A stretch of 64,000 nucleotides of DNA from the NCBI RefSeq assembly GCF_017983445.1, contig NZ_JAGOBJ010000008.1, forward strand, positions 186,001 through 250,000, written 5' to 3'. Below are positions 42,071-51,685 of this stretch, in pieces; position 1 is the stretch's first letter, and the number at the start of each line of letters is the position of its first letter. The DNA comes from Halomonas sp. (GTDB lineage: Bacteria; Pseudomonadota; Gammaproteobacteria; Pseudomonadales; Halomonadaceae). The position numbers and the translations under genes were made by a program. The notes beneath the pieces were generated by a model. That model was given only the letters and a program-made list of their open reading frames with translations. It did not search any database and was not told where the DNA came from.

Positions 42071-42097
42071 AAAAGGCGGCTACCTGAGTAGCCGCCT
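42071..42097 (-). terminator. Rho-independent terminator after porin gene
   Basis: On the minus strand AGGCGGCTAC (42097-42088), loop TCAG, GTAGCCGCCT (42083-42074) then T residues to 42071: a perfect ten-bp stem. It lies about 50 bases past the porin stop and also separates it from topB. Confidence 0.78.
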
Positions 42098-42145: not shown

Positions 42146-43186
42146 TTAAAACTTCACTTCGACACCAATACCGTACAGGTCATCACGGGGGCGATCATCA
42201 AGACGTACGCGATCGACATTGTATTCGGCGTAGAGTTTGGCGCGCGGCATCACCTGATAGGAAACTCCGAAGACGTATTCATCTACGCGATTGCCTTCGT
42301 CCGCTAGGTTATCCTGGCCTTTTTCGTTGTTATAGCCTGCCATTAATAGAAAATCGCCTAGTTGATAAGCGCCGGCCAGTTCGTAGAAGTGGGTTGAGAA
42401 TTCCTCGTTATCAGCGGCCTGCATGGATTTATAGCCGTTGATGGCACCCACGTAAAGAGAGTTGTAACGGTAGCCTGCGCCAAACCCCCAGCTGGTCATG
42501 TCACCAAGCATGGCCGTCGCGCCTTGAAATCTTTGGCGTTCGTAAGCGGTCACCAAATCCAGGCCGATATCGGTACTGTAACGAGCGGAAAGGCTGTATT
42601 GGTAGTTGCGGTCGCCATCGGTGGTTTCACGTGTGCGCCGGTCATCCTCAAATACATAGCTCGCGCGAAGGTCCCAGTTGCCGACATCATAGCCAATGGT
42701 CAGCTGGTCATCTTTTTTGCTGGCAAAGGGCTTGATGCCATTAATTTTATTGTCGTTGGCAGAAGAGCCAAACAGCTCAAAAATATCGGTAACGTCAATC
42801 AACTGACTGGTTGAGCTTTTGGTTCGGCCGATTGCCATTTCCAACTGGTCGAGGTAGCGAAAACCCAGCCAGGCATAGCGCACATCAAGGCTATCGGTTT
42901 TAGCATCGTTTTCCTCTTCGGCGTTCATCTGCCACTCTAACTTACCCAGCAGATCTATTTCATCTGAGAAGCGATAGCGAAACTGGGTGCCCAGGCGGGC
43001 TTTACCATCACCACCAAAGTTCAAGCGCTTGGTCTTATCCTGCTTGTCGTATTTAAATGCGCCCGCCTCATACTGCACCTTACCGGTAAGGTCGACTCTA
43101 AGATCGTCTGCTTTATAGACAGTCGCCGCTTGAGCCGTTTGCATAGCAACGATAGAAACGGCGGTAAATACTAATAAATTCTTCAT
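42146..43186 (-). CDS. Outer-membrane porin (general Gram-negative type)
   Basis: 346 residues. Signal peptide (MKNLLVFTAVSIVAMQTAQA), then alternating beta strands with aromatic girdles, and a terminal Phe (GIGVEVKF), as in OmpC/OmpU-type 16-stranded porins. Segments GKVQYEAGAF, FRYRFSDEIDLLGKLEWQM and WGFGAGYRYNSLY support this. It forms a passive diffusion channel; association with the phytase locus suggests it admits phosphorylated substrate or product. The gene is the last of the minus-strand row that starts at 51356, separated from the phytase by 116 bases carrying a perfect palindrome (43229-43250). Confidence 0.85.
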   Translation of the reverse strand: MKNLLVFTAVSIVAMQTAQAATVYKADDLRVDLTGKVQYEAGAFKYDKQDKTKRLNFGGDGKARLGTQFRYRFSDEIDLLGKLEWQMNAEEENDAKTDSLDVRYAWLGFRYLDQLEMAIGRTKSSTSQLIDVTDIFELFGSSANDNKINGIKPFASKKDDQLTIGYDVGNWDLRASYVFEDDRRTRETTDGDRNYQYSLSARYSTDIGLDLVTAYERQRFQGATAMLGDMTSWGFGAGYRYNSLYVGAINGYKSMQAADNEEFSTHFYELAGAYQLGDFLLMAGYNNEKGQDNLADEGNRVDEYVFGVSYQVMPRAKLYAEYNVDRVRLDDRPRDDLYGIGVEVKF

Positions 43187-43228
43187 TTTCCGATCCCTGA
43201 ATCAAGATTAAGGCAGCAAGAACCCGTT

Positions 43229-43250
43229 CCTTTAATTCGATAATTAAAGG
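43229..43250 (-). promoter_or_regulatory. Perfect palindrome upstream of porin gene
   Basis: CCTTTAATT (43229-43237), four-base centre CGAT, AATTAAAGG (43242-43250), 43-64 bases upstream of the porin start. Could be a regulator site or an mRNA hairpin in the phytase-porin gap. Confidence 0.4.
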
Positions 43251-43302
43251 AGCTGAAACGTCAGTAGCGTTTTTTAGTTAATTAAGATTTTATGCTTGAT
43301 GA

Positions 43303-44724
43303 TTAAAAGTGGTTTTTTAACAGTTCAACGTTATCTTCAAGTGTGCTGTTTAAAGCAACGCCACTGTTTTCAAGTTTTTCGGTGTAATAGTCTTTAATGC
43401 TTTCCCAGGAGTAATAAGGGAATGTAGCTGTAGTGATTGGAAAGGCTATTTCCTGCTCATTGCGCAGCATTTTTATCAGGTGATCGCCATTATTTTCGTA
43501 AATAATCCATTGGATATTGGCACCCATAGGCGTTATCTCAGATCCTTTCCATATTTCGGCGACTAGGTCAGGGTTATCTTGGCTTTCATTAGCGCCTGCT
43601 ATATCCAGATAAGAAGAAAGCGGAATAATCGTTTCTGCATGGCCGAAATTGAAGATGCCGCTAAGGTTATTGTCCTGTAATGCATTGTCAGTTGAGACCA
43701 GCAGTTCCTTGACGAGCGGCGCTGCGATGTCTTGCGGAAGGTCGGTGCTGGTTAGCGATGGGCCCTTGGCATAATAGGTTTCCAGTATGTCGAGTTTCTC
43801 GTACCAGGCCAGCTGATCCTGGGTGAAGTATTGACCAAAATCGAAGGTGCCCTCCTGAGTTATGTTGGAGGCAATAATGTAAAGCTGATAAAGGTTATTG
43901 GCGGCATCTTCTGGGCTTCTCAGTTTGACTCTGCCTTTTTCATCTTCAAAAGCGAGTGTGCCGTCAGACAACGCTTCGTAGAGCTCCTCGCCAATAAACT
44001 GGCTCATGATGGTTTGGGCGAATTCAGCTGTTTGGGGCTGCTGATCCAGATATGCTTCCAGGACTTCTTGCCATTCACCGCCACTTTTATAGGCTTTGTA
44101 CTGAGTGGCCAGATCGTAGGGCCGAAGATACGGATCGCTGCCTTTTGCATACTGCTCGGCGGTAATCGGGGGCGTCTGCTCGCCCAGCGCTACTTTAAGC
44201 CCTTCAAGGAAATGGTCGCGGCTTTGCGGCGCACGGTCTTTATAAGTGGCATGTGCCTCAATAGGGCGTCCGCTTTCAAATACGTCGGCAAACTGCTTAC
44301 CCATGCGTTGGCCAATAGCATTAAGCTCTTCACCGCCTGATAAAGACAGCTCACCGTAAACATCTTTCTCCACTTCCATAAGGCGCGCTATTTGCTGCTG
44401 TAACGCTTGGCCAGCATCTGTTAGCTGCTGCTCTTGTTCAGCCAACGCCAGTAGCTCGTTAAGCGTTTTGTCATACTTTGCGCTGGAAAGATGGCGCGAG
44501 CCATGTCGTCCCACGTAATTGATAAATACCGGCTGATAGCCTTCAGGGGCGGGCGTATAGCGGGTGGCGACATAGGGATAGGGTGACTTTGTACTGAGGT
44601 GCGCATCAATAGCGGCGTCAGGATTAACTTCAGGAGTGTTCTCTGCCAATGCGTTAGAGGATAACAGCCAGGCCGTAGCGGCCAGGGCGGTAAGGCATAG
44701 GGAGCGTGGAGCGAAGGCTTGCAT
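43303..44724 (-). CDS. Secreted histidine acid phosphatase (MINPP/phytase type)
   Basis: 473 residues. Signal peptide (about 1-27, ending SNALA). Catalytic motif GRHGSR with His74 and the distal HAE (His362-Ala-Glu) mark histidine acid phosphatases; the serine after RHG and the general layout resemble multiple-inositol-polyphosphate phosphatase (MINPP) rather than AppA (RHGXRXP). It would dephosphorylate phytate or related organophosphates in the periplasm. It lies downstream of a LacI gene and ABC importer and upstream of a porin; a palindrome with GCAC-N4-GTGC core lies 61-76 bases upstream. Substrate is inferred from motif and context. Confidence 0.83.
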   Translation of the reverse strand: MQAFAPRSLCLTALAATAWLLSSNALAENTPEVNPDAAIDAHLSTKSPYPYVATRYTPAPEGYQPVFINYVGRHGSRHLSSAKYDKTLNELLALAEQEQQLTDAGQALQQQIARLMEVEKDVYGELSLSGGEELNAIGQRMGKQFADVFESGRPIEAHATYKDRAPQSRDHFLEGLKVALGEQTPPITAEQYAKGSDPYLRPYDLATQYKAYKSGGEWQEVLEAYLDQQPQTAEFAQTIMSQFIGEELYEALSDGTLAFEDEKGRVKLRSPEDAANNLYQLYIIASNITQEGTFDFGQYFTQDQLAWYEKLDILETYYAKGPSLTSTDLPQDIAAPLVKELLVSTDNALQDNNLSGIFNFGHAETIIPLSSYLDIAGANESQDNPDLVAEIWKGSEITPMGANIQWIIYENNGDHLIKMLRNEQEIAFPITTATFPYYSWESIKDYYTEKLENSGVALNSTLEDNVELLKNHF

Positions 44725-44784
44725 GGTTTAGCGTTTCCTTTCTCGGTCATAGGGACATGCCGTTAGCGCAACATGTCAGGTTTT

Positions 44785-44800
44785 GGGCACAGGGGTGCCC
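44785..44800 (-). promoter_or_regulatory. GCAC-N4-GTGC palindrome upstream of phytase gene
   Basis: GGGCACAGGGGTGCCC: arms GGGCAC and GTGCCC around AGGG, about 61 bases upstream of the phytase start. It shares the GCAC-N4-GTGC core with the site at 51445-51462. Adjacent bases on the transcribed strand are A's, not T's, so a terminator is less likely. Confidence 0.4.
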
Positions 44801-44860
44801 CGTCGCCATGAAATAAGGCGAATTAAAATGATTACTTGGCTGTTTTAGCGGGAGTAGCCG

Positions 44861-45862
44861 CTAGCCGGGGCGAATGGTGCTACGCCATACGGGCCTGGCA
44901 GGTAGCTGGATGATCTGGCTGATATCATTTTCATCCGCCAGCTGCTTAGCGATGCAGGCAGCAATTTCCTCAACCGGGTGATGAAAGGTAGTCAGGTCAT
45001 AGCTTTGCCAGCTGGCTTGCTCGATATTATCGAAGCCCATCACGCAGAGGTCTTGAGGAATATCGAGCTTGAATGTTTGACGGGCCGTATCTAAAAATCC
45101 GCACGCCAGCAGGTCGGTGGTACAGAGCACGGCATCCGGCCGCTGCGAGCGGGCCAGTAACTGCCGGGCGGCTTCCTGCCCCGTGGCGTAGTGGGTAGGA
45201 CCTGCCCGCACAATAGAGATGGGCAAGCCCGCCTCATTGACTGCCTGGCTAAAGGCTTGCTCACGTGCGACAAGGCTTGGGGTGCAGGCAGTGGATGTTA
45301 CTAACCCAAAAGAGCGGCACCCCGCTCGATAAAACAGATCAAAGGCTTCCTGCATCGCCGCTTCATGATCAAGCGTAATATGCACTGGACCGGTAAACTC
45401 CTGGCCTCGGTTAACCAGCACCACGCGCAGCCCGCTTTGGATACAGGTTTGAACCAGCGATTCAGCTGGAGCGCCTGACAGAACCACGATAGCGCTTGCC
45501 CGGTATTTCAGCGCCTGATGTAAAGCGCTTTCTACAGCTTCTTCCTCGCCTGAGGTGTTAATCAGCATGACCGCACGGCCCAACGCCTGGATATGACGAC
45601 TAACGGCCTCCAGCAGGCTGGATAAAAACGGCGATGATAGGTGATCACCCACCAGGCACACCGGGCGTGAACTCTCCTGGGAAAGACCACGGGCCAAGTG
45701 GTTGACGTGATAATTAAGCTCTTTGGCTGCCGCAAGCACCTTTTGGCGCGTTTCCTCGGAAACGCTGGCGCCGTCGGTGAAAGTGCGCGACACGGCGGAA
45801 CGTGACACACCGGCCAAACGGGCTACTTCTTCCGCACTAGCAAACTTGCGTGAGCTGCTCAT
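44861..45862 (-). CDS. LacI-family transcriptional regulator
   Basis: 333 residues. N-terminal HTH (ASAEEVARLAGVSRSAVSRTFTDGASVSEETRQKVLAAAKELNY) with the hinge helix, then a periplasmic-binding-like effector domain (about 62-330). The start overlaps by 26 bases the end of the CX5R phosphatase gene, placing it inside the ABC-importer operon, which it presumably controls together with the phytase. The effector could be an inositol, inositol phosphate or another sugar phosphate. Confidence 0.88.
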   Translation of the reverse strand: MSSSRKFASAEEVARLAGVSRSAVSRTFTDGASVSEETRQKVLAAAKELNYHVNHLARGLSQESSRPVCLVGDHLSSPFLSSLLEAVSRHIQALGRAVMLINTSGEEEAVESALHQALKYRASAIVVLSGAPAESLVQTCIQSGLRVVLVNRGQEFTGPVHITLDHEAAMQEAFDLFYRAGCRSFGLVTSTACTPSLVAREQAFSQAVNEAGLPISIVRAGPTHYATGQEAARQLLARSQRPDAVLCTTDLLACGFLDTARQTFKLDIPQDLCVMGFDNIEQASWQSYDLTTFHHPVEEIAACIAKQLADENDISQIIQLPARPVWRSTIRPG

Positions 45863-46457
45863 CGGGTGCCTCTTGCAACAGCTGTTTTATTTGTCTGGCC
45901 GCAATGCGGGCCGCTTCAAATAGCTCTGGTTTGGGCGTTTCAAACCACTCATCCGGGTGCAGCTGCCGTTCCTTGCGAACATGAGCAACCGCGCTTTCAA
46001 GCGTAGGGTAACGGTTAGGCAATTCCAGATGTAGAAACAAAGATACCAGCGTGACCGAACGACTACGCCCTCCGCGACAGTGAACCAGCACGTTGCCTTT
46101 TTCACGAAGCGGGTAGGAAGGCTTGTCGGGCATAATCTGATCCAGCGCCGCCCTTAAAATGAAATAGGCAGCCAGCATCTGCTCGTGGGGGTTGCCCGGG
46201 CCGTCAATCATGCCGATCTTGTAATACCGAAACCTGCCTGGGCCCTGAATGAAACCGTTGGGCGTAGGCGGAAGACTGGTATCCACCAGGTTAATATCCA
46301 GGTTGACGGCGCAGTTGATCACCGTGGTAATACCGTTTTCTTCCAACAACGCCGGGCTGCTGGCGGCCTGACTATCGCCAATATAAAGTGCCACGTTACG
46401 CCCCGGCAGGCACGGTTCGATCAGGCTCATGGGAGGGCGCGGATAGTGTTTTGTCAT
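45837..46457 (-). CDS. CX5R protein-tyrosine/dual-specificity-type phosphatase
   Basis: 206 residues, no signal peptide. The P-loop HCRGGRSRS places Cys127 and Arg133 (CX5R); a probable general acid is Asp85 in MIDGPGNP. The overall dual-specificity or PTP-like fold is small. Given the location between an inositol-monophosphatase-like enzyme and a LacI regulator, removing phosphate from an imported small molecule is as likely as acting on proteins. It overlaps the upstream gene by four bases (ATGA) and the LacI gene by 26. Confidence 0.75.
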   Translation of the reverse strand: MTKHYPRPPMSLIEPCLPGRNVALYIGDSQAASSPALLEENGITTVINCAVNLDINLVDTSLPPTPNGFIQGPGRFRYYKIGMIDGPGNPHEQMLAAYFILRAALDQIMPDKPSYPLREKGNVLVHCRGGRSRSVTLVSLFLHLELPNRYPTLESAVAHVRKERQLHPDEWFETPKPELFEAARIAARQIKQLLQEAPDEQLTQVC

Positions 46458-47278
46458 GCGATTTCAAGCTCTTCAAGTTGGCTGTAATGAGTAAGTGCGT
46501 CAGCGATAAGTGGTGTTGCTGCGAGTACTGCGCCACCGTGCTTTAGCGTGCCGGGCAGGGAAAGATAGGGGCGGGTTACACCGCCGGCTTCGCTGACTAG
46601 TAAAAGACCGGCCAAACTGTCCCACGGGTTCATGTGGTGCTCGAGGTAGCCGTCGATTCGGCCTTCAGCCACCCAGGCCAATGCAAGCGCCCCCGACGCC
46701 CCGCGGCGAATATTGGCGCCATGGGATAACAGGGCGGCTTGGGCGTTCAGGTACGTTTGCAGCGCCGTACGTGTGGACCAGCCCATTTCAATTGTGGCGG
46801 TCGTGAAACTATCGGTGGCGGCTACCTGAATCGGCTGGGCGTTTTTATAGGCGCCCTTGCCGCGTTGGGTGAAATAGAGCTCCTCGGTACACGGATTAAA
46901 AATGGCGCCCAGCTGGGTTTTACCGCCGTCGATAAAAGCGATGCAGACACAGAAGTGGGGGATGCCCCTGGCATAGTTGGCGGTGCCATCAATCGGGTCG
47001 ACGACCCAGATGGCATTACCATTCATTTGCCCGCCGCTTTCCTCACCGCTACTTTCCTCGCCCACAAAGGCATCGCTGGGAAAGCGCTGTTGAATGGCAA
47101 CTCTGATCTCCTGCTCGATGAAGGTATCAGCCTCGGTCAGGAAATCCTGGTGGCCCTTGAGCGTGTAAAGCCCTGGCTTGCGTGTTTCGAAAAGATGGCG
47201 TGCTTTCAGGCCAGTGCGGTGAATCAGATCCTTGAGAAATTCAGCGCGGACTTCCAGCTCATGGGGCAGAATCGGCAT
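46454..47278 (-). CDS. Inositol-monophosphatase-family enzyme
   Basis: 274 residues of the IMPase/SuhB family, Mg-dependent. Motif A WVVDPIDGTANYARG, the upstream GEES acidic pair and motif B WDSLAGLLLVSEAGG bind the metals. It hydrolyses inositol monophosphate or a related phosphate monoester in the cytosol. Start ATG 47278 is preferred (AAAGGATAGAC upstream). It lies in the same operon as the binding protein, 42 bases downstream, and overlaps the CX5R phosphatase by four. Confidence 0.87.
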   Translation of the reverse strand: MPILPHELEVRAEFLKDLIHRTGLKARHLFETRKPGLYTLKGHQDFLTEADTFIEQEIRVAIQQRFPSDAFVGEESSGEESGGQMNGNAIWVVDPIDGTANYARGIPHFCVCIAFIDGGKTQLGAIFNPCTEELYFTQRGKGAYKNAQPIQVAATDSFTTATIEMGWSTRTALQTYLNAQAALLSHGANIRRGASGALALAWVAEGRIDGYLEHHMNPWDSLAGLLLVSEAGGVTRPYLSLPGTLKHGGAVLAATPLIADALTHYSQLEELEIA

Positions 47279-47320
47279 GTCTATCCTTTTATTTTGCAAC
47301 GTGAACGTTGGGTTTTGTTG

Positions 47321-48424
47321 TTAACGGCGGTAGTTCAACATCCACAGGTCCTGCCAATCCTGGCGGTTTTCCCAGTCATCAATGGCCGTGCGGGGCGAGT
47401 AATCAAATAGCTGAGCCTTGAGGGCGCCAATGCCGGAAGGCTCTGTCTCGGGCAGTGATATATCCGAGCGGGTGGAAATCTTGCCATCCTGGGCTTGCGG
47501 CGCGATGCCTTCTTCGGTCAGCAGGTAATGCAAAAAAAGCTTGGCGGCGTTAGGGCTTTGGGTACCGCTGGCTATAAGGCCGATGGAGGGATAGGTCCAG
47601 CCAATCCATGGGTCCAGTCCTTCGCAAATACCCAGTTTCATGCCGTCAGCATTATCACGAAACTTGGCGGTACTGGTTAAGCCGAGAAAGCTGTCCTGCT
47701 GATCCGGGGAGGCAACGGCTTCGGCTGCATTGGAATCTGAATCGGTTAATAGCGGCGCGTTGTTTGCCAGCGCTTTCACCCAGGCGGCGGTAGCGCTCTC
47801 TTCAGTATCGGGTAATGGGTGGCCGTAGCGCGCCTCAAAGGCCGCTGCCATCGCTTCATCCCCGTGCTGGGTCATCTGGTTAAACCAGTCCACGTAGGAA
47901 GGCTTGCCCAGCGGATCCTGCAACGCTACCCGGCGTTCCCACTCGGGTTCGGTCAATTCCCAGATATTATTGATCGGGCAGTGATCGTGGAGTGCGGTGT
48001 TGTAGGTCCAGACATTGGGAGCCATCACAATGGCTAATGGATCGCGGTAGCGCTCATCCACCCGGTCGGCTAGCTCAGCAGGGAACCAGTTAACCGTAAA
48101 GCCTGTGTCCAGAAGCTGGGCAACGGCTGCCGGGGCGTCTGCCAGAATGGCTACATCGGTTTGAATATTATTGGCTTGCGCCTCGCGGATGATCCTTTCC
48201 AGGGTATGGGGCGCTTTTGATTTAACCCCTTCGGCCTGAACGCCATACTGTGCGGAAAAATTGGCTGCCTGTTCAACAATCTTGCCGGTTGAATCGTAGA
48301 TCGTAATGCCTGGTTCCTGCCGGGCAGCTGCAATTAAAGCATCCAGCTCAGTGGATTCGTTAGCCCAGGCCAAGGGAGCTGAGGCCAGGCTAATGGCAAC
48401 GGTAAGTCGTGATAAAAGACGCAT
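47321..48424 (-). CDS. ABC transporter substrate-binding protein
   Basis: 367 residues with a signal peptide (MRLLSRLTVAISLASAPLAWA). It belongs to the type-2 extracellular solute-binding group (ferric/2-aminoethylphosphonate/spermidine-like). Elements ITIYDSTGKIVEQAANFSAQYGV and the late FLHYLLTEEG are characteristic. Cysteine pairs (around HDHCPI and GICEGL) may form a disulfide. Being followed by an ATPase and a double permease of the same class, it delivers one solute; the linked phosphatases suggest a phosphorylated compound, though an iron or phosphonate substrate cannot be excluded. Confidence 0.83.
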   Translation of the reverse strand: MRLLSRLTVAISLASAPLAWANESTELDALIAAARQEPGITIYDSTGKIVEQAANFSAQYGVQAEGVKSKAPHTLERIIREAQANNIQTDVAILADAPAAVAQLLDTGFTVNWFPAELADRVDERYRDPLAIVMAPNVWTYNTALHDHCPINNIWELTEPEWERRVALQDPLGKPSYVDWFNQMTQHGDEAMAAAFEARYGHPLPDTEESATAAWVKALANNAPLLTDSDSNAAEAVASPDQQDSFLGLTSTAKFRDNADGMKLGICEGLDPWIGWTYPSIGLIASGTQSPNAAKLFLHYLLTEEGIAPQAQDGKISTRSDISLPETEPSGIGALKAQLFDYSPRTAIDDWENRQDWQDLWMLNYRR

Positions 48425-48435
48425 AACAAACCCTT

Positions 48436-49548
48436 TTAAACGGCGTGCATATAAGTGGTGGTAGAGACGTTGTTACGGATTATTCCCGCCTGGCCATAAC
48501 GGGTGTTTTCCAGGCGATGGCCATCGGTATCAAATAGGTGCAAATGCTCAGGCTGTATCTGGCAAAAGGTGTGCTCGCCCGCCTGTACCTGAGGCCTGAT
48601 CTGGGTAGAAAGCTGCAAGCACTGGCCTTCCGTTTCAAGATCCAGAACCCAGCTGCCACCTGTCGGCATGATGCCTTGTACTTTGGCAGGTAAGGCGTAG
48701 GGTGTGGCCGCCTGAGCTAGGTGAATGTCTTCAGGTCGGATGCCGAGCATGTGTGTATCAGGCTGGTTATTGAGACGACTCCCCAGCATGGAGTCAGCGG
48801 CAATCTGGTTGATCGGCGGGTTGCCAATAAACTCGGCGACAAAGCGGTTGGCGGGGCGTGCATAGATATCATCGGGGCTGCCTACCTGCTGCAAGTGCCC
48901 CTTGCTCATGACGGCGATCGTAGTGGCCAGTGTCATGGCCTCCCACTGGTCGTGGGTGACGAACAGGATGGTGGTATCAAATGCTTGGTGTAGCCGTTTC
49001 AGCTCAGCGCGCATTTCCAGGCGCAGTGAGGCGTCGAGATTGGACAGCGGCTCATCCAGCAGCAGTACTTTGGGCTTTAAGACCATCATACGGGCGAGCG
49101 CCACGCGCTGCTGCTGGCCGCCTGATAGCTGAGAAGGGTAGCGCTTGGCATAGCCGGCAATGCCCAGTTTATCCATCACTTCGCCGGTCCGGGTGCGCCG
49201 TTCGCGCTCAGAAAGTTTGCGCAGACGCAATCCAAACTCGATATTTTGCTCAACCGTCATGTGGGGCCACAGCGCGTAGCTTTGAAACACTAGCCCCAGC
49301 CCACGTTTTTCGGGAGACACAAAGCAGCCGTCTGCCGGGGAGTCCATTAGCTGATCGCCGATAAACAGACGCCCCTGGCTCAAGTGCTCAAGGCCCGCGA
49401 TCATGCGCAGCATCGTAGTCTTTCCGCAGCCCGAAGGGCCAAGCAGGCACATGAAATCACCGCTTTTGATATGCAGGTCGATATTTTGCACGGCGGTGGC
49501 CTGGCGGCTGTACTGCTTGGATATCGCGTCTAACGTGATGGTCGGCAT
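48436..49548 (-). CDS. ABC transporter ATP-binding protein
   Basis: 370 residues. Walker A GPSGCGKTT, Q-loop, signature LSGGQQQRV, Walker B VLLLDEPLSNLDA and the switch His (FVTHDQWEAM) are intact, followed by a C-terminal TOBE domain (about 280-350). It powers import through the adjoining fused permease. The start at 49548 lies two bases after the permease stop codon, and the binding-protein gene begins 11 bases after its own stop. Confidence 0.93.
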   Translation of the reverse strand: MPTITLDAISKQYSRQATAVQNIDLHIKSGDFMCLLGPSGCGKTTMLRMIAGLEHLSQGRLFIGDQLMDSPADGCFVSPEKRGLGLVFQSYALWPHMTVEQNIEFGLRLRKLSERERRTRTGEVMDKLGIAGYAKRYPSQLSGGQQQRVALARMMVLKPKVLLLDEPLSNLDASLRLEMRAELKRLHQAFDTTILFVTHDQWEAMTLATTIAVMSKGHLQQVGSPDDIYARPANRFVAEFIGNPPINQIAADSMLGSRLNNQPDTHMLGIRPEDIHLAQAATPYALPAKVQGIMPTGGSWVLDLETEGQCLQLSTQIRPQVQAGEHTFCQIQPEHLHLFDTDGHRLENTRYGQAGIIRNNVSTTTYMHAV

Positions 49549-49550
49549 AA

Positions 49551-51356
49551 TTAGCTCTCCAGACCTTGGGCAAGGCCCGTTTTGGTTAATTTCTGAGTCA
49601 GAATCGTGCCGCCCCAGGCGAGCATGGCAATCATGAGTACAACGGCGTTGGCGGCTTGGGTGTAGTTGTAATCAACCAGGCGCAAAGAGTAGGTGGTAAG
49701 CACTTCGGTAGCTGGCACCGCCAGAATGATGAACAGGCTCACGCCTTTAATTCCCGAGATAAAAGGTAAGACGATACCCACTACCAGCGCGCCTTTCTGA
49801 ATAGGCACGATGATGCTCCACATGCGCCGTAGCCACGAAGCGCCTGAAATCTGTGCGGCCTCTTCGGGCTCTTTACCCAGCTGCGTCATGGCTGAGATAC
49901 CTGCCCGTGAAGCAAAGGGCATCTGGTCGGCAATTAGCGCGAGCATCAGAATCATCGACGTTCCATATAGCGCAGGAACAGGGCCGCGCTGCACGGCAAA
50001 AAGGGAAAGCGTGGCGGCTGCAAAGGCAATGCCAGGCACTAGATAAGGCATAAACGTGAGCTGGCGCAGCGAGCTTGCAAGCCAGCGCCAAGGCGTACGC
50101 GTCACCACATAGCCCACCAGCAGGCCGAGTAAACCGGCACATATAGAGGCGGTACCCACAATACGCAGGCTATTCCAGGTGGCGGACCAGAACTCAGGGG
50201 TTAATAAAATGCCGTTTTTCAAGGCGATCGTATTGAGGTTGGTGCCGATCCAGTAATCCAGGGTGAAGTTATTCAGATGAAAACGCCCTGGAATACGCAT
50301 GATGGTGGATAGAAAAAGCGTTAATAGCGGAAGCACGACGCCAATGATAAACAGAGAAGCGGCTAGCAACGTGGCGGGAAGGCGCCAAACGCCGAGCGGG
50401 CGACGACGTTCCATAGCGCCTTTGCCACCCAGGGTGACAAAGCGGCGCGCTTCACGCATTAGGTAAAGATCAATTGTTAACGTGATACAGCCCAGCACCA
50501 TGATGGCCCCCGCCAGTACAGAGGCGACACCCGTCTGGCGCGACGAAATAGCTCTGAACAGCGAGGTGGAGAGGGTGTCGTACTGCACCGGCAGGCCGAG
50601 AATGTAGGGCACGGCAAACTCGCCCAGCCCATCGGCCAGAATCAGCACCATCGCGGACATCAGCGCAGGTCGCATTAGCGGTAAAATGATACGAAAGGCA
50701 ACGGTTGAACGGCTGGCGCCCAGAATGCGAGCCGAATCTTCAAGCTGGGAATCCAGGCGGCGTAAGGCGTTGCCAAACAGCAGTATGACCAGCGGAATAT
50801 AGTGCAGCGCCAGTATGAAAATCATCGGCACGGGACCATAAGCCAGCCAATCGGGCGAGGAGTAGCCCATTGACTCCAGCCAGCCTGGTTGGCCACCCAT
50901 CGACCGGTTCTTGAATAACGTGGTCCAGGCTAGCGCGAACGTCCACGTAGGGAGCATAAACGGCACAATCAATGCAGTAGCAAACCAGCCTCGGCCCCAC
51001 AAATTAGTACGACTTAAAAGCCATGCCATGATGCCGCCCACCACCATGGCAATACACATAGCGCCGATGGCCACGCTAAGCGTGTTGAGTAACGGTTGCC
51101 AGAACAGCCGCTTTGAAATAGGTGAGGTAAACACGCGTTCAAGGTAGTAAAACGTGAAGCTGCCCTGTTCTGCGCCAATGCGCGTTGAGTCGCCAAAGTT
51201 AACGTTAACCGCATCCATTAAAATGGAAATAACTGGCGCCAGGATCAGGTAGCTGAATGTGGTTAATAAGCCTATGCCAAGTAGCGTCGCTGGATTTTTT
51301 AGACTGAGCTGTAGTCCCCTTTTACTGGGGAGTGCTGAAGTGATCCACCCAACCAT
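49551..51356 (-). CDS. ABC transporter fused double permease
   Basis: About 601 residues with roughly twelve membrane helices and two binding-protein-dependent permease domains in one chain, the arrangement found in ferric (SfuB/FbpB-like) and phosphonate-class importers. EAA-type loops occur in both halves (LEDSARILGASRSTVAFRIILP and PEEAAQISGASWLRRMWSIIVP). ATG 51356 with GAGGGA is chosen; an in-phase extension to 51461 has no site. It is the first gene of the importer/phosphatase operon. Confidence 0.88.
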   Translation of the reverse strand: MVGWITSALPSKRGLQLSLKNPATLLGIGLLTTFSYLILAPVISILMDAVNVNFGDSTRIGAEQGSFTFYYLERVFTSPISKRLFWQPLLNTLSVAIGAMCIAMVVGGIMAWLLSRTNLWGRGWFATALIVPFMLPTWTFALAWTTLFKNRSMGGQPGWLESMGYSSPDWLAYGPVPMIFILALHYIPLVILLFGNALRRLDSQLEDSARILGASRSTVAFRIILPLMRPALMSAMVLILADGLGEFAVPYILGLPVQYDTLSTSLFRAISSRQTGVASVLAGAIMVLGCITLTIDLYLMREARRFVTLGGKGAMERRRPLGVWRLPATLLAASLFIIGVVLPLLTLFLSTIMRIPGRFHLNNFTLDYWIGTNLNTIALKNGILLTPEFWSATWNSLRIVGTASICAGLLGLLVGYVVTRTPWRWLASSLRQLTFMPYLVPGIAFAAATLSLFAVQRGPVPALYGTSMILMLALIADQMPFASRAGISAMTQLGKEPEEAAQISGASWLRRMWSIIVPIQKGALVVGIVLPFISGIKGVSLFIILAVPATEVLTTYSLRLVDYNYTQAANAVVLMIAMLAWGGTILTQKLTKTGLAQGLES

Positions 51357-51685
51357 TGATTTTCCCTCGTTGACACTCTGGATAGCCGAAAGATCGACCT
51401 GATTGAGAGGCATTCTAAAGAGGAAAGATGACAGAACGTTGACATTTGCACATAAGTGCAAAATTCTTAGAACATTAAATTCATGATTAATATCAATTGG
51501 TTGTGTTTTTTGTCATATTTTATAAGAAAAAATTAATGAAGCTTTTTGCACCTAATTACATACGTAAAATTCTTTCTCGCCAGTGCTATCAACGTTATTG
51601 TCGGTAAGCTCAACCGCTGTTACTCACAACGGGTAATCAGGGAATAGGCTACGCTAAAGAGCTATTCATTTTAAAAGGCGGCCAT
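51357..51685. other. Divergent promoter region with a palindrome
   Basis: These bases separate the importer operon (minus) and the ABC1-kinase gene (plus). The left-to-middle part is AT-rich and contains the palindrome 51445-51462 and a second half-site TTTGCAC near 51548. No gene is seen. Confidence 0.5.
51445..51462 (-). promoter_or_regulatory. Palindromic operator upstream of importer operon
   Basis: TTTGCACATAAGTGCAAA: perfect seven-base arms around ATAA, 89-106 bases upstream of the permease start. It shares its GCAC-N4-GTGC core with the site in front of the phytase gene (44785-44800). A single half-site (TTTGCAC) occurs about 100 bases further upstream. The LacI regulator of the locus is a candidate to bind it. 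Confidence 0.5.

Follow-up and report, generated by a model that had tools for sequence, protein, structure and literature searches.

How would inositol phosphates enter a bacterial cell as such, and what would they be used for there? This question is raised by a row of eight genes on the minus strand (positions 42146-51356) of a 64,000-nucleotide stretch of Halomonas sp. DNA (contig NZ_JAGOBJ010000008.1), which we analyzed as a whole and refer to as the window. An earlier sequence-only reading had seen in this row a route by which an inositol phosphate or other organophosphate passes a porin, is partly dephosphorylated, is imported and is finally stripped to inositol. Phytate is a main phosphorus store of plants and, in soil and sediment, forms an important pool of organic phosphorus; its use by bacteria is usually described as extracytosolic phytase action, after which phosphate or inositol is taken up. 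From comparison with related loci, an inositol-phosphate importer is the best explanation of the row, given the wide conservation of its core, the two kinds of phytase-type phosphatase found beside that core, the neighboring inositol catabolism (iol) genes and a promoter in which an operator adjoins a Pho box. We consider it likely that the genes form a phosphate-controlled operon for the acquisition of inositol (poly)phosphates, serving the host mainly as a phosphate supply.

Gene content of the locus

The genes were assigned from translations of open reading frames (ORFs) and a Pfam profile search. From high to low coordinates, the row and the sites around it are:

51445..51462, minus strand: candidate LacI-type operator, TTTGCAC-N4-GTGCAAA, matched perfectly nowhere else in the 3.9-Mb genome
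51428..51445, minus strand: predicted PhoB site (Pho box), ATGTCAA-CGTT-CTGTCAT, with 2 mismatches to CTGTCAT-N4-CTGTCAT
51412..51417, minus strand: -10 box TAGAAT, 10 bp past the Pho box, from the promoter comparison
49551..51356, minus strand: perm, fused double permease of an ATP-binding cassette (ABC) importer, 601 aa, BPD_transp_1 in two stretches; start corrected by relatives
48436..49548, minus strand: atp, ABC importer ATPase of the MalK/PhnT/FbpC type, ABC_tran/TOBE_2
47321..48424, minus strand: sbp, predicted periplasmic binding protein with an FbpA/AfuA-like fold, PF13531 (SBP_bac_11) and structure model
46454..47278, minus strand: imp, phosphatase of the inositol monophosphatase (IMPase) family, PF00459 (Inositol_P), SuhB/IMPase structures; TTG 47299 is an alternative start
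45837..46457, minus strand: dsp, Cys-based dual-specificity-type phosphatase (DSP) with HCRGGRSRS, PF00782 (DSPc)
44861..45862, minus strand: lacI, LacI-family regulator, PF00356 and PF13377
43303..44724, minus strand: minpp, MINPP-type histidine phosphatase, a phytase candidate, PF00328 (His_Phos_2), BtMinpp 4fdt
42146..43186, minus strand: porin (Porin_4), Pfam profile
42074..42097, minus strand: terminator-like hairpin past the porin, 10 pairs then TTTTGG, from a hairpin scan

All eight ORFs of the sequence-only reading are present with the families it gave them, and the coordinates bear out its overlaps of 4 bases between imp and dsp (46454-46457) and 26 bases between dsp and lacI (45837-45862). 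The motifs it named also occur in the translations: RHGSR and HAE in the MINPP-type enzyme, HCRGGRSRS in the DSP and DPIDGT in the IMPase. Its permease start (TTG 51461) was rejected because this codon sits inside the conserved operator and because in close relatives, such as L002 with its 601-aa permease, the ORF opens at the place that corresponds to ATG 51356; the gene very likely starts at this ATG. For the IMPase, ATG 47278, with AAAAGGA upstream, is probably the start rather than TTG 47299. Judged by eye, signal-like N-terminal stretches are found in minpp, sbp and porin, and none in imp, dsp or lacI.

A gap of 136 bases separates lacI from minpp, and the hairpin scan lists no terminator-like site between these two genes on the minus strand. 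Together with the hairpin past the porin, this allows a single long transcript without showing one; the number of terminator-like sites in the region (13, with a shuffle mean of 12.0) carries no meaning by itself. The inverted repeat CTTTAATT-ATCG-AATTAAAG between minpp and porin (window 43230-43249) is AT-rich and perfect, and AT-rich repeats are seen between the two genes in 5/6 Halomonadaceae loci examined.

A six-gene core in Gamma- and Alphaproteobacteria

Searching a genome collection with the DSP as the query gave 55 loci (labeled L002, L022 and so on), whose surrounding stretches we compared. They include loci from Vreelandella, Marinomonas, Vibrio, Brenneria, Pantoea, Erwinia, Klebsiella, Enterobacter, Leclercia, Serratia, Celerinatantimonas, Rhizobium, Sinorhizobium and Rhodobacter-group bacteria; the window DSP is 98-99% identical to those of V. 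populi and V. zhanjiangensis. The core perm-atp-sbp-imp-dsp-lacI recurs in both classes, with all six genes in 43/55 loci under a strict non-overlap rule and in the exact order in 30/55. Five more loci (L008, L011, L016, L026, L034) have all six genes in a looser table. The other seven consist of four on contigs shorter than 7 kb (L006, L018, L023, L027), one with broken ORFs (L055) and two in which only the DSP and the ATPase were found (L041, L052). Judged by this conservation, the gene row goes far beyond chance. The sequence-only reading had proposed looking for the whole neighborhood in other genomes: the six-gene core does recur widely, whereas the phosphatase and porin are interchangeable, lineage-specific satellites.

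Within the core, IMPase and DSP are fused in one protein in 16/55 loci (Pfam check of one, L022), which argues that both enzymes serve one path. Alphaproteobacterial loci have extra binding proteins and often a second IMPase. Their versions also include a metallophosphoesterase gene (12/55 loci) and, close to the core, a gene of the Na/Pi-cotransporter family (14/55, all alphaproteobacterial); one member of each was checked against Pfam. In a class-wide sample, the DSP (E ≤ 1e-30) was found in 1/369 genomes, only the window's own, and the distribution of the module is therefore patchy.

Several individual loci deserve description. On a Klebsiella pneumoniae plasmid (L057 2261-15843), a KdgM porin and a histidine phosphatase, both by annotation, accompany an importer, an IMPase-family protein and a LacI-like regulator; IS5 and IS3 transposase genes flank this module, and the plasmid itself was typed as conjugative IncF, so that the module can travel. 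Sinorhizobium meliloti pSymB (L058 13075-26522) has two IMPase-DSP pairs, separated by about 12 kb; a metallophosphoesterase adjoins one, and the other follows the importer. The copy in Vibrio sp. HDW18 (L017/L059 12780-20582) adjoins 2-aminoethylphosphonate (phn) genes. Shortened core ORFs, as if decaying, are seen in three loci, two of Symbiopectobacterium and one of Leclercia (L048, L053, L055).

Two kinds of phytase-type phosphatase beside the core

The closest solved relative of the window's histidine phosphatase is BtMinpp (4fdt, E 3.9e-50), with 7zgf (Multiple inositol-polyphosphate phosphatase) at E 2.5e-33, and its RHGSR and HAE motifs lie in the alignment to BtMinpp. In branch 2 of the histidine phosphatases, RHG is the nucleophile motif and HAE the proton-donor motif. 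Similarity and motifs place the protein in the MINPP family, and we regard it as a candidate phytase; it is also the sole His_Phos_2 match in the host genome.

A MINPP-type gene stands beside the core in all seven Halomonadaceae loci (L002-L008, with L006 partial, cut by the contig end). In Vibrio sp. HDW18 (L017), a MINPP-like protein that is 28% identical to the window's occurs with a porin, divergently placed. The enterobacterial loci L022, L042, L043, L044 and L046 instead have a PhyK-type phosphatase and a KdgM-family porin: the best solved relative of the L022 enzyme is 3-phytase 2wnh (E 8e-67), with glucose-1-phosphatase 6rmr at E 7.4e-28, and the other four enzymes are homologues of the L022 protein. 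In a sample of Halomonadaceae, 4/151 genomes have the DSP, and in all four a His_Phos_2 gene lies about 1.3 kb from it. Among the 147 core-negative genomes, 2 have a His_Phos_2 match over the cut-off and 1 more has a weak match. This association (4/4 versus 2/147) has a Fisher value of 7e-7 in a test that ignores shared descent, and it may reflect one ancestral acquisition.

A promoter with a candidate operator and a predicted Pho box

With at most 2 mismatches, the operator is found upstream of the permease in 37/45 loci versus 2/900 shuffles; the rest of the 55 loci lack a usable permease or upstream stretch, and the shuffle controls, here as for the Pho layout and for the tests upstream of minpp, porin and kdgM, keep base composition only. 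In 8/13 alphaproteobacterial loci looked at, a copy (at most 2 mismatches) also lies within 400 bases 5' of dsp. The most natural candidate for a protein that binds these sites is the linked LacI regulator.

Directly downstream of the operator in the window are two CTGTCAT-like repeats, 11 bp apart and 10 bp before the -10 box, which read ATGTCAACGTTCTGTCAT, 10 bases and TAGAAT (2+0+1 mismatches). The Neorhizobium locus L010 has a perfect Pho box (CTGTCATCCTGCTGTCAT, 10 bases, TATGGT). The same layout, with more mismatches, is seen in Marinomonas, Vibrio HDW18, Brenneria and Pantoea A4, and many enterobacteria keep CTGTAAC, 10 bases and TATATT. We compared the 39 permease promoters among the 45 loci that have the operator and enough sequence with 7800 random windows from the same loci. 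A Pho half-site 10 bases before a -10 box, at up to 3 mismatches, is present in 29/39 promoters versus 0.18% of the random windows, and the full Pho element, at up to 5 mismatches, in 16/39 versus 0.013%.

The host's PhoB scores over the cut-off, a Pho box followed by 10 bases and TGTTAT precedes its phoB gene, and a Pho box also precedes ugpB; PstS (TIGR00975) has no match in the host genome. Allowing up to 2 mismatches, we counted 29 matches to the Pho pattern in this genome and 5 to its reversed control. A Pho-box-like site lies directly upstream of the host's N-acetylglucosaminyl phosphatidylglycerol synthase gene as well (L077 332-1450), hinting at phosphate-controlled lipid remodelling; the same site also falls in a small opposite-strand ORF.

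Inositol catabolism and the role in the host

Genes of the iol pathway lie within 10 kb of the core in 5/55 loci (L009, L012, L035, L050, L051), and in L012, iolG, iolB, a methylmalonate-semialdehyde dehydrogenase gene, iolE and iolD stand in a row, all over the cut-off. IolD passes its cut-off in 30/40 core-carrying genomes searched, a set that was reached via the 55 loci and leaves out L056 and 14 other loci. It was not found in the host genome (best score 221.7 bits versus a cut-off of 715), and of the three remaining core-positive Halomonadaceae genomes two lack it, as do the genomes of L002-L005. Inositol breakdown thus often accompanies the core, yet it is not required. Carbon use via IolD is rejected for the host on this score, and since the host lacks IolD, the system here probably supplies phosphate rather than carbon. 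The sequence-only reading holds in part: its inositol-phosphate substrate is strongly supported by comparison, through the two phytase-type subfamilies, the iol neighbors and the IMPase-DSP fusions, but its end point of free inositol finds no IolD carbon route in this host, and the conserved Pho box, which it had missed, points to phosphate supply.

Binding protein and predicted cytosolic enzymes

The AlphaFold model of the binding protein (pLDDT 93) has an FbpA-type fold. A profile search with this protein first finds the glucose-6-phosphate-binding VcA0625 (8x1a, E 8e-7), and a direct sequence search of the PDB is marginal (4r72, E 0.79). In an alignment of 34 sequences (the window's and 33 of 73 binding-protein ORFs), invariant basic residues include K48, K68, R80, K174, K254, R256, K315 and R354, fitting a multiply charged anion as the ligand. 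The ABC parts score best, all below the cut-off, against Ugp- and PhnT/PhnU-type models. Relatives by fold bind phosphorylated molecules: AfuA takes hexose phosphates, with His205, Asp206 and Glu229 as sugar-binding residues (PMC4546632), and P5PA takes pyridoxal phosphate (PMC8427247).

The IMPase matches SuhB/IMPase structures and scores 190.4 bits against PF00459 (cut-off 27). Its translation contains DPIDGT and WDxxAG, which we take to be motifs of the inositol monophosphatase family. It stays below both NCBIfam equivalog cut-offs, those for IMPase (SuhB; 137.7/332 bits) and HisN (142.2/275.15 bits). In the DSP, the CX5R site runs from C127 to R133, and C127, R133 and D85 are invariant in 30 aligned sequences (the window's and 29 of the 55 loci's DSPs). 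Its structure model matches VHR and other DUSPs. We considered the DSP as a protein tyrosine phosphatase-like (cysteine) phytase and rejected this assignment, as its solved relatives are of the VHR/DUSP type and no signal-like start is seen by eye.

Proposed mechanism and alternatives

In the mechanism that we propose, the porin would admit phytate or lower inositol phosphates, which the MINPP-type enzyme would trim in the periplasm. The inositol phosphate, having lost some of its phosphates but being still anionic, would then be delivered by the FbpA-fold binding protein to the importer with the fused permease, and the remaining phosphates would be taken off in the cytosol by the DSP-type phosphatase and the IMPase. 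In the promoter, the Pho box would replace the -35 box, with the LacI operator abutting it directly upstream; given this arrangement, we propose an AND gate that requires both PhoB, active when phosphate is scarce, and substrate, whose presence would release the LacI repressor. Transcription would read through into minpp and porin. Whereas the genes, their motifs, their conserved order and the conserved operator and Pho-box sequences are observed directly, we infer the ligand, transport, enzyme substrates and locations, LacI-operator binding, the AND logic and read-through.

A number of observations weigh against this proposal. Neither an operator nor a convincing Pho box is found before minpp or porin in the window, nor before kdgM in enterobacteria, and co-expression of these genes would thus depend on read-through; the shuffle fractions of the upstream motifs are 0.05 for the window minpp and 0.03 for the L043 kdgM, and elsewhere 0.43-0.94 (four other Halomonadaceae minpp promoters) and 0.70-0.97 (kdgM of L042, L044 and L046). 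A MINPP- or PhyK-type phosphatase is present in 13 loci and absent from the fetched stretch in 42/55. Regarding control, motif counts within the window are not above chance in shuffle controls (5 Pho patterns versus 3.9 expected), the operator at up to 2 mismatches has 10 matches in the host genome and so does its reversed control, and 16/20 genomic Pho sites looked at fall within an ORF of at least 120 aa, meaning that many genomic matches are chance. The Pho element is lacking in 8/39 promoters, all alphaproteobacterial, and is weak in L015 and L045. The locus counts are taken over related sequences with kinship ignored, and as these are not independent, the counts overstate significance. 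In addition, histidine phytases tend to leave the axial 2-phosphate in place, a position at which IMPases act poorly. Finally, the solved folds nearest to the binding protein belong to proteins that bind iron or metal-citrate, namely MctA (metal-citrate), FutA and FbpA (ferric iron) (best E 1.8e-14; TMq 0.55-0.68 and identity 13-21% among the 50 matches listed by Foldseek).

These fold matches would suit uptake of an iron- or calcium-phytate complex with the metal as the prize, but the Pho box and the two core phosphatases point to phosphate, and we regard metal uptake as very unlikely. It is also improbable, though less so, that minpp and porin are chance neighbors unrelated to the importer. 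They share no operator with it and follow a 136-base gap after lacI, and minpp is less conserved than dsp in Halomonadaceae loci (61-71% versus 84-98% identity; both ranges leave out L003, and that of minpp also the partial L006). However, minpp is kept in all seven Halomonadaceae loci fetched, and the theme is repeated by the MINPP-like protein and porin of Vibrio and by the PhyK type with KdgM in enterobacteria.

Two further alternatives, which we judge to be unlikely to the same degree, keep the importer and change its substrate or purpose. If it took up organophosphates in general, such as sugar phosphates, glycerophosphodiesters and other phosphomonoesters, for promiscuous phosphatases, this would agree with the Ugp- and PhnT/PhnU-type scores of the ABC parts, the glucose-6-phosphate-binding protein found by profile, the near-equal IMPase and HisN scores and the metallophosphoesterase of the alphaproteobacterial versions. 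Set against this, the core is repeatedly accompanied by phytase-type enzymes and iol genes, and no sugar- or glycerol-phosphate genes were noticed at the loci, although no systematic search for them was made. If inositol phosphates were instead imported as a source of myo-inositol, with phosphate as a by-product, one would expect the frequent IolD and the iol genes near the core, and the Na/Pi-cotransporter-family gene looks as if it passed on surplus phosphate. The eight promoters without a Pho element argue in the same direction: six of them (L016, L028, L033, L040, L050, L051) have TTGAC exactly 6 bases past the operator, like a -35 box, compared with 0/31 other promoters that have it within 20 bases, and of the examined promoters, all six at loci with a Na/Pi-transporter gene (L016, L028, L040, L047, L050, L051) lack the Pho element. 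This suggests two physiological versions of the module, one for phosphate scavenging (PhoB and LacI) and one for carbon use (LacI alone). Carbon as the general purpose is nonetheless difficult to reconcile with the absence of IolD from the host and several core-positive relatives and with a Pho element that is conserved from Halomonadaceae to Neorhizobium, and IolD is common regardless of the core (48/151 Halomonadaceae genomes).

Relation to known systems

The proposed uptake of inositol phosphates for phosphate shares features with several described systems. The catabolic iol genes are likewise directed at inositol and lie near the core in five loci, but the host lacks IolD, and the known iol transporters take free inositol. 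UgpBAEC, which takes up glycerol-3-phosphate, is also an organophosphate ABC importer, and the host ugpB also has a Pho box, but its binding protein is of another family. PhyK 3-phytase (2wnh, Klebsiella-type) and BtMinpp (4fdt), the closest solved relatives of the core-adjoining phosphatases, are described as phytases; in the available portions of two Pantoea genome papers and one pig-gut paper, no linked importer is mentioned for the phytases. The Fbp-fold binding protein of the hexose-phosphate importer AfuABC (Sit et al. 2015, PMC4546632) bears an iron-transporter annotation, yet its ligand is a phosphorylated carbohydrate; the window differs in its fused permease, linked phosphatases and LacI and Pho control, and the direct sequence relation between the binding proteins is marginal (4r72). 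P5PAB, which takes up pyridoxal phosphate (PMC8427247), has a binding protein of the same class and a phosphorylated ligand, but this ligand is a vitamin, and the word "phosphatase" is absent from the main text of that paper.

Among the papers listed by limited searches of open-access literature, we found no described bacterial importer of inositol phosphates, which is weak evidence as only open papers are covered, and the words "phytase" and "phosphatase" are absent from the main text of a LacI regulon survey (PMC4052901). Each part of the system is of a known kind, and the combination and the proposed substrate appear to be new. On balance, we lean toward regarding it as the first bacterial importer of inositol phosphates as such, a widespread module in which interchangeable outer phytases would feed an Fbp-fold importer, a paired and often fused IMPase and DSP would finish the dephosphorylation in the cytosol, and control would lie with a PhoB and LacI AND gate or, in a carbon version, with LacI alone. 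If this is true, many bacteria import inositol phosphates, which would alter models of phytase leftovers, phosphate cycling and inositol cross-feeding, and functions would follow for proteins now labeled "iron ABC transporter permease," "inositol monophosphatase family protein" and "dual specificity protein phosphatase."

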